Assembly (NCBI RefSeq): GCF_037892605.1
Contig: NZ_JBBKTU010000001.1
Span: 434,001 to 498,000, forward strand
Reading direction: 5' to 3'
DNA: 64,000 bases
DNA from: Lacibacter sp. H407
GTDB taxonomy: Bacteria > Bacteroidota > Bacteroidia > Chitinophagales > Chitinophagaceae
Part shown: piece by piece, positions 25,284-25,540 of the stretch
How positions within the stretch are numbered: position 1 is the stretch's first letter
How the letters are laid out: every line of letters starts with the position of its first letter
The notes under the pieces: model-generated
The model's database searches: none
Seen by the model: the letters and a program-made list of their open reading frames with translations, nothing else
Told to the model about the DNA's origin: nothing
Program-made: the position numbers and the translations under genes

Positions 25284-25310
25284 AAATCCTCCTTGAGTTT
25301 ACGGTTATAC

Positions 25311-25348
25311 AAAAAAAATAACAACGCCTCAGTTGTGCTGAAGCGTTG
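25311..25348 (-). terminator. Leader terminator/attenuator upstream of greA, possible small RNA
   Basis: On the minus strand an 11-bp stem (CAACGCTTCAG / CTGAGGCGTTG, 5-base loop) is fully paired counting one U-G pair, and is followed by TTATTTTTTTTG. On the plus strand the wobble becomes a C-A mismatch, so the structure is built for the greA direction. It sits between a promoter and the greA ribosome-binding site. It could also end a transcript from the VF530 gene 190 bp upstream. Confidence 0.85.
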
Positions 25349-25365
25349 CATGTTTTATTGAATAA

Positions 25366-25392
25366 CAAAAATAGCCTTTTTTTTGAAACCAA
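25366..25392 (-). promoter_or_regulatory. Promoter upstream of the greA leader terminator
   Basis: A perfect TAnnTTTG element (TATTTTTG, 25373 to 25366) has a TTG 16 bp upstream (25392 to 25390). Transcription from here would begin near 25358 and reach the U-tract after about 48 nt. Confidence 0.6.
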
Positions 25393-25540
25393 CAGCCTTT
25401 GTTTATTTACGTAAAAAAACCGCCCGTATGACCACAGACTGTATCGATTATATTAAGCGCCGGATGAGATAATGCTGATGAAAATTAATTTGTGGGCATT
25501 TCGATGCAATCGCCATTTTTAAAAAGGATGCGGATCGCTT

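Follow-up and report, generated by a model that had tools for sequence, protein, structure and literature searches.

A conserved terminator hairpin ahead of greA in Lacibacter sp. H407 and other Chitinophagaceae, a probable transcription attenuator

Introduction

The transcription elongation factor GreA governs backtracking, fidelity and repair. In E. coli, expression of its gene is attenuated in the leader, where about two thirds of the transcripts stop at the terminator GraL, giving rise to short RNAs of 49-59 nt and 37-47 nt (PMC6829880). According to that paper, the effect requires cleavage-competent GreA, with residues D41 and E44 needed for feedback, and switching the arms of the GraL stem largely abolishes the response, with termination in vitro remaining. 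The same paper observed no GreA effect on GraL in vitro and leaves the factor connecting the two to be named; why a stop signal stands ahead of greA is a question even in E. coli.

Attenuators before greA have also been reported in Proteobacteria, bacilli and Clostridia, and greA/rnk takes seventh place in the same survey's ranking of gene families in which a 5' terminator is frequent (Naville and Gautheret, 2010; PMC2965389). A text search of that survey gave no matches for Bacteroidetes, greA is not named in two further papers (PMC7815308, PMC6296669), and a literature search of open-licence papers found no report of a greA-leader attenuator in Bacteroidota. Here, we describe the greA leader of Lacibacter sp. 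H407 and compare it with the leaders of its relatives. greA attenuators as such are already known; new here are the host phylum, a stem that hardly changes, the lack of a visible antiterminator, and the rare Shine-Dalgarno (SD) motif.

Results and Discussion

Layout of the greA leader in Lacibacter sp. H407

The window, that is, the whole 64-kb stretch of DNA that was analyzed, contains greA on the minus strand, flanked upstream by a VF530 gene in the same orientation and downstream by a gene with a HIT domain (Pfam). The features of the leader are listed in Table 1.

Table 1. Features of the greA leader region, in positions of the window
Feature	Position	Strand	Basis and remarks
TTG, candidate -33 element	25390-25392	-	Read from the sequence; 16 nt ahead of the -7 box
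TATTTTTG, candidate Bacteroidota-type -7 box (TAnnTTTG)	25366-25373	-	Read from the sequence
Terminator hairpin, 12 pairs, basal stem GCAACGC/GCGTTGT	25321-25349	-	Scan, fold and relatives
T-run TATTTTTTTT, directly 3' of the stem	25311-25320	-	Sequence and scan
Predicted stopped RNA, about 48 nt	25311-25360 (ends approximate)	-	Start assumed 5 nt past the box
AAGGAGG, strong SD of greA	25288-25294	-	-11.2 kcal/mol, calculated with an assumed anti-SD tail
greA, transcription elongation factor GreA, 156 aa	24813-25283 (ATG 25283-25281)	-	Pfam GreA_GreB_N and GreA_GreB; TIGR01462 above cut-off

The order of elements that the initial annotation had read on the minus strand, with TTG-N16-box, hairpin, T-run, AAGGAGG and ATG, was recovered with every element in its place. 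The hairpin itself was likewise recovered; it had been described as an 11-bp stem, and the correct count is 12 pairs, including two G-U pairs. The 5' end of the hairpin is separated from the TATTTTTG box by 16 nt. The candidate promoter, TTG-N16-TATTTTTG, which we take to be of the Bacteroidota type, is absent from the list of a sigma-70 scan. For a box of this type, omission by such a scan is expected. The whole 64-kb window gave no Rfam match at gathering level, and 20 weak matches of the leader to Rfam families (E up to 10) were rejected, all of them lying under the cut-offs of the respective families. A weaker terminator-like hairpin is located ahead of the greA promoter (25422-25439, minus strand) and could end the VF530 message.

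The leader resembles GraL in that a terminator hairpin with a T-run lies in the greA leader just past the promoter. The predicted length of the short RNA is similar, and the cleavage residues D41 and E44 are retained in the GreA of Lacibacter sp. H407, which shares 45% identity with E. coli GreA. The differences concern the letters of the stem, the Bacteroidota-type promoter box, the rare SD and the distance from the hairpin to the ATG, which is 37 nt in Lacibacter in contrast to 102 nt for GraL. The terminator scan used for the family leaders also finds the GraL hairpin, and the RNA model R1 (see below) does not match it (L099; best value there E > 1). Thus, the likeness to GraL that had been proposed from the sequence holds for the layout and the predicted length, and it fails for sequence kinship, because the stems differ and R1 has no match. 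The layout shared with E. coli may be of ancient or of convergent origin.

Based on this architecture and on the conservation, covariation and near-restriction to greA described below, the greA leader of Lacibacter sp. H407 probably attenuates transcription in the manner of E. coli GraL; this assessment excludes feedback by GreA, which is weighed separately. RNA polymerase would start a few nucleotides past the box, the hairpin would form behind it within about 40 nt, and some of the transcripts would be released at the T-run as the short RNA of Table 1, whereas the remaining transcripts would be read through into greA. The hairpin thus probably sets the amount of GreA. With the same assumption of a start 5 nt past the box, stopped RNAs of 35-56 nt (median 45) are predicted for 82 leaders. 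Judged by a 5'-leader terminator that is kept across species, the locus would belong to the broad class of attenuated greA genes.

Conservation in Chitinophagaceae

In 12 kb of sequence, nine terminator-like sites were found, and the greA hairpin has the most pairs among them. This number of sites is not above that in shuffled sequences (9 vs. a mean of 12.1), so that the significance of the hairpin rests on its conservation. The 121-nt leader folds better than its shuffles (z -3.1; 2 of 200 shuffles were as good). GreA is present in 189 of 195 genomes of the family, and 85 family leaders were analyzed, comprising that of Lacibacter sp. H407, those of the 29 best GreA matches, 15 that had been missed by the RNA model, and 40 from further down the list of matches. 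According to the scan, 84 of the 85 leaders contain a terminator-like hairpin. The initial annotation had named the lack of a conserved hairpin in close relatives as an outcome that would speak against it; evidently, the hairpin is conserved. Of these 84 leaders, 67 also have a TAnnTTTG box at a distance of up to 32 nt on the 5' side of the hairpin, and the number rises to 82 when a relaxed form is allowed. The distance from the end of the hairpin to the ATG was 23-66 nt (median 32). In three leaders (L263, L279, L261) the stretch between T-run and SD is longer and, by eye, may hold a second small hairpin.

The controls were 213 genes of the family, taken from the window and from ten regions of 20 kb in family genomes, and 162 genes from regions of other families. 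The comparison is weakened because the control genes adjoin greA and are partly orthologous to one another. A terminator-like site at -110 to -15 was found for 23 of the 213 and 14 of the 162 genes, a hairpin with TAnnTTTG just 5' of it for one and none, respectively, and TAnnTTTG alone, in a stretch of 46 nt, for 13 of the 213. The genes were called with a crude caller, and 17 greA rows called by it served as a check; 14 of these had the hairpin, and nine of them also TAnnTTTG. At least some of the misses are accounted for by misplaced starts, as in L108, where the hairpin is present once the start is set by alignment (L263, same genome). A single control gene combines a box with a subsequent terminator-like hairpin in the leader; it was found in two Lacibacter relatives (L100:1356-2234, plus strand; L101:17529-18407, minus strand), and its protein presumably resembles FtsX.

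The neighborhood of greA bears on whether the hairpin is instead an ordinary terminator or insulator of upstream transcription, with the greA promoter downstream of it. Such a terminator would suit the VF530 gene upstream and the same-strand upstream neighbors in six of ten family greA rows, and, judged by eye, the gene preceding greA in some of the deeper families seems to end just before the hairpin, which may there be merely the terminator of that gene. However, most family leaders have the box on the 5' side of the hairpin, and the hairpin is kept in three leaders (L100, L103, L109) in which the upstream neighbor is on the opposite strand and no same-strand open reading frame of at least 50 aa ends within 400 nt upstream of greA. 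Any terminator-like site was found for 3 of the 58 family control genes with an opposite-strand neighbor. We regard an insulator as unlikely and attenuation as the preferred reading.

The T-run was called in 84 of the 85 leaders, directly after the stem. A hairpin that stabilizes the greA mRNA needs no T-run; therefore, although one family member (L050) has kept the hairpin and lost the T-run, it is very unlikely that the element stabilizes the message or pauses the polymerase without release of RNA.

Near-restriction to greA

The RNA model R1 matched 157 of the 195 family genomes at E <= 0.01, four of them twice, and the matches cover 86 of 101 genera. The neighboring gene was checked for 15 matches, and 13 of these are located ahead of greA. 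The other two (L313:127-164, plus strand; L312:1057-1097, minus strand) have the same basal GCAACGC/GCGTTG stem away from greA, in L313 with a long T-run; they represent either chance or a reused terminator. The notion that the element is absent where the model misses was rejected for the genomes read. Among the 38 genomes without a match, 15 fetched leaders and one further genome (G031, L309) were read, and all 15 fetched leaders have the hairpin by eye, that of L050 lacking the T-run.

An exact pattern was found in 101 stretches of the genome collection, 80 of which were listed as loci (one locus twice). For 79 of these 80, greA follows 18-80 nt downstream on the same strand, and in the remaining one (L139) the sequence ends 48 bases past the motif. 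TAnnTTTG is present at most 45 nt 5' of the pattern in 59 of the 80 listed rows, and an SD in 47. In the genome of Lacibacter sp. H407, the strict pattern occurs once.

Covariation and letter constraint in the stem

In a MAFFT alignment of 30 leaders, 18 cells were changed on both sides of a pair, compared with a mean of 3.6 after shuffling, and none of 500 shuffles reached this number. In a model-fitted alignment, which is biased towards the structure and comprises 82 of the 85 leaders (L049, L050 and L053 had no match under the limit), 58 cells were changed on both sides compared with 11.4, again reached by none of 500 shuffles. The number of pairs with a both-side change was four in both alignments and was not above that of the shuffles (reached by 65 and 327 of 500, respectively), because the variation is confined to the upper stem. 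Compensatory changes across Chitinophagaceae, which had been suggested as a check, are thus found in this part of the stem. The basal CAACGC/GCGUUG pairs are nearly invariant, and 4 of the 12 pairs never vary. Among 78 distinct aligned leaders, pair 4 is changed from A-U to G-U in three and pair 7 from C-G to U-G in two. Taken together, covariation above and nearly fixed letters below indicate that the upper stem is kept for pairing and the base also for its letters. A single U-G pair had been taken as a sign of selection in the direction of greA, and the relatives agree with this, with UG in 60, CG in 9 and UA in 9 of the 78 distinct leaders. In L049 and L309 the stem is respelled, which shows that its letters can shift over longer times.

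We infer that the nearly unchanging basal stem has a role in recognition or in the tuning of termination. The need for the stem letters in E. coli fits such a constraint in Chitinophagaceae. Conservation almost letter for letter exceeds the needs of pairing, and GraL is reported to act also in trans, with nudE as a likely target (PMC6829880), yet relatives differ freely in the loop and the 5' end, which are single-stranded and would be the usual sites of pairing with targets, so that a mainly trans-acting small RNA with only secondary read-through expression of greA is highly improbable.

Other families of Bacteroidota

In a sample of the phylum, R1 matched 9 of 296 genomes, all nine of them Chitinophagaceae; a single sequence motif spanning the phylum was therefore rejected. 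A terminator-like hairpin within 160 nt was found in 33 of 40 greA leaders from other families, and TAnnTTTG just 5' of it in eight. Under looser limits, which were chosen after looking (-5 kcal/mol, TAnnTT[T/C]G), 19 further Bacteroidia leaders outside Chitinophagaceae, most of them from families already sampled, had a hairpin directly after the box in 17 cases, and in 16 of the 19 within 160 nt. The same limits gave 2 of 213 family control genes, which are orthologues of one gene, 0 of 162 control genes elsewhere, and 10 of the 17 self-called greA rows. The letters of the stem are alike within a family and different between families.

Candidate regulators

In the predicted transcript of Lacibacter sp. 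H407, about 11 nt precede the hairpin. For 82 leaders, folds formed in the absence of the 3' arm reached at best -3.9 kcal/mol, in a test that covered the sequence 5' of this arm. As there is no visible competing fold and no room for a leader peptide or an aptamer, the polymerase itself is the most likely point of regulation. In Enterobacteria and bacilli, greA-leaders also have a 5' terminator ahead of the gene; in contrast to the Lacibacter leader, in which none is visible, a clear antiterminator is given for each of them in the description by Naville and Gautheret (PMC2965389). The rimP-leader, as described in the same paper, is more similar in this respect: it is a short terminator ahead of transcription-factor genes, its stem is highly conserved, and it lacks a visible antiterminator. 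Recognition by a protein such as NusA has been proposed for it. It precedes a different gene and has the stem GGGc...gCCC, whereas the greA leader has CAACGC...GCGUUG.

The likeliest regulator would be GreA, which could cleave backtracked RNA near the T-run and thereby increase termination, as in E. coli; NusA- or NusG-type factors would be the alternatives. By analogy with GraL, feedback of GreA on its own leader in Lacibacter sp. H407 is a serious possibility, which we put forward tentatively. With one stem that is nearly fixed in its letters in dozens of genera and no visible antiterminator, the question of why a stop signal precedes greA narrows to what the polymerase and its factors read there.

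The Shine-Dalgarno motif of greA

Strong SDs are rare in Bacteroidia, in which the anti-SD is hidden in a pocket formed by bS21, bS18 and bS6, and they have been noted for some ribosomal genes, among them rpsU and rpsR (PMC9976891, PMC8710568). A text search for greA in PMC9976891 gave no matches. Already the initial annotation had singled out the strong SD of greA as rare, and the counts bear this out. With an assumed anti-SD tail, because no 16S end was found in the genome itself, 34 of the 85 family greA leaders pair at <= -10 kcal/mol, compared with 0 of the 213 controls. The corresponding values are 35 of 85 vs. 1 of 213 at <= -8 kcal/mol and 38 of 85 vs. 15 of 213 at <= -6 kcal/mol, and five of the 85 leaders reach <= -14 kcal/mol. 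Outside Chitinophagaceae, 6 of 40 greA leaders pair at <= -8 kcal/mol. Within the family, a strong SD is missing from more than half of the 85 leaders. On a GreA tree of 109 rows, of which 80 or fewer had been picked by motif, the SD requires at least 16 changes, compared with 28-41 in 100 shuffles; apparently, it is clustered in clades and has been switched repeatedly. Together with its lack in more than half of the leaders, this indicates that the SD is selected in some lineages and is no fixed part of the element.

Both rpsU (-13.4 kcal/mol) and greA have a strong SD in the genome of Lacibacter sp. H407. Like the rpsU-type mRNAs of Bacteroidota, greA thus combines a rare strong SD with a hidden anti-SD. 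However, the pairing of -14 to -21 kcal/mol given for rpsU (PMC9976891) is stronger than the -11.2 kcal/mol of greA, and an rpsU-like extended pairing (-13 to -14 kcal/mol or better) is not reached by the greA of the window. It is our conjecture that greA responds, via its strong SD, to ribosomes lacking bS21. Through its strong SD, greA would join the short list of SD genes of Bacteroidia as a non-ribosomal member.

A more far-reaching and rather unlikely scenario is that greA is gated twice in Chitinophagaceae. The first gate would be a GreA-sensitive terminator with a stem that is read by the elongation complex, and, at the second, ribosomes with a free anti-SD, for example those lacking bS21, would mainly translate the full-length mRNA. 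Much of Bacteroidota would have retained the first gate in a respelled form, and the second would have arisen only in some lineages. If true, the supply of GreA would follow the make-up of the ribosomes.

A general use of SDs in the genome of Lacibacter sp. H407 was considered and is not supported, since AAGGAGG-N3-9-ATG occurs 45 times compared with 42 times for the reversed control, that is, at chance level. By eye, about 7 of the first 30 of these 45 places look like gene starts, including those of greA and rpsU. Besides greA, the likely gene starts with AAGGAGG comprise L225, L238, L240, L242, L249 and L250. L242 encodes bS21 (Pfam); of the remaining five, judged by eye, one appears to encode a lysine-rich protein, one an Hsp20-like protein and one an ABC transporter, and two encode other proteins.
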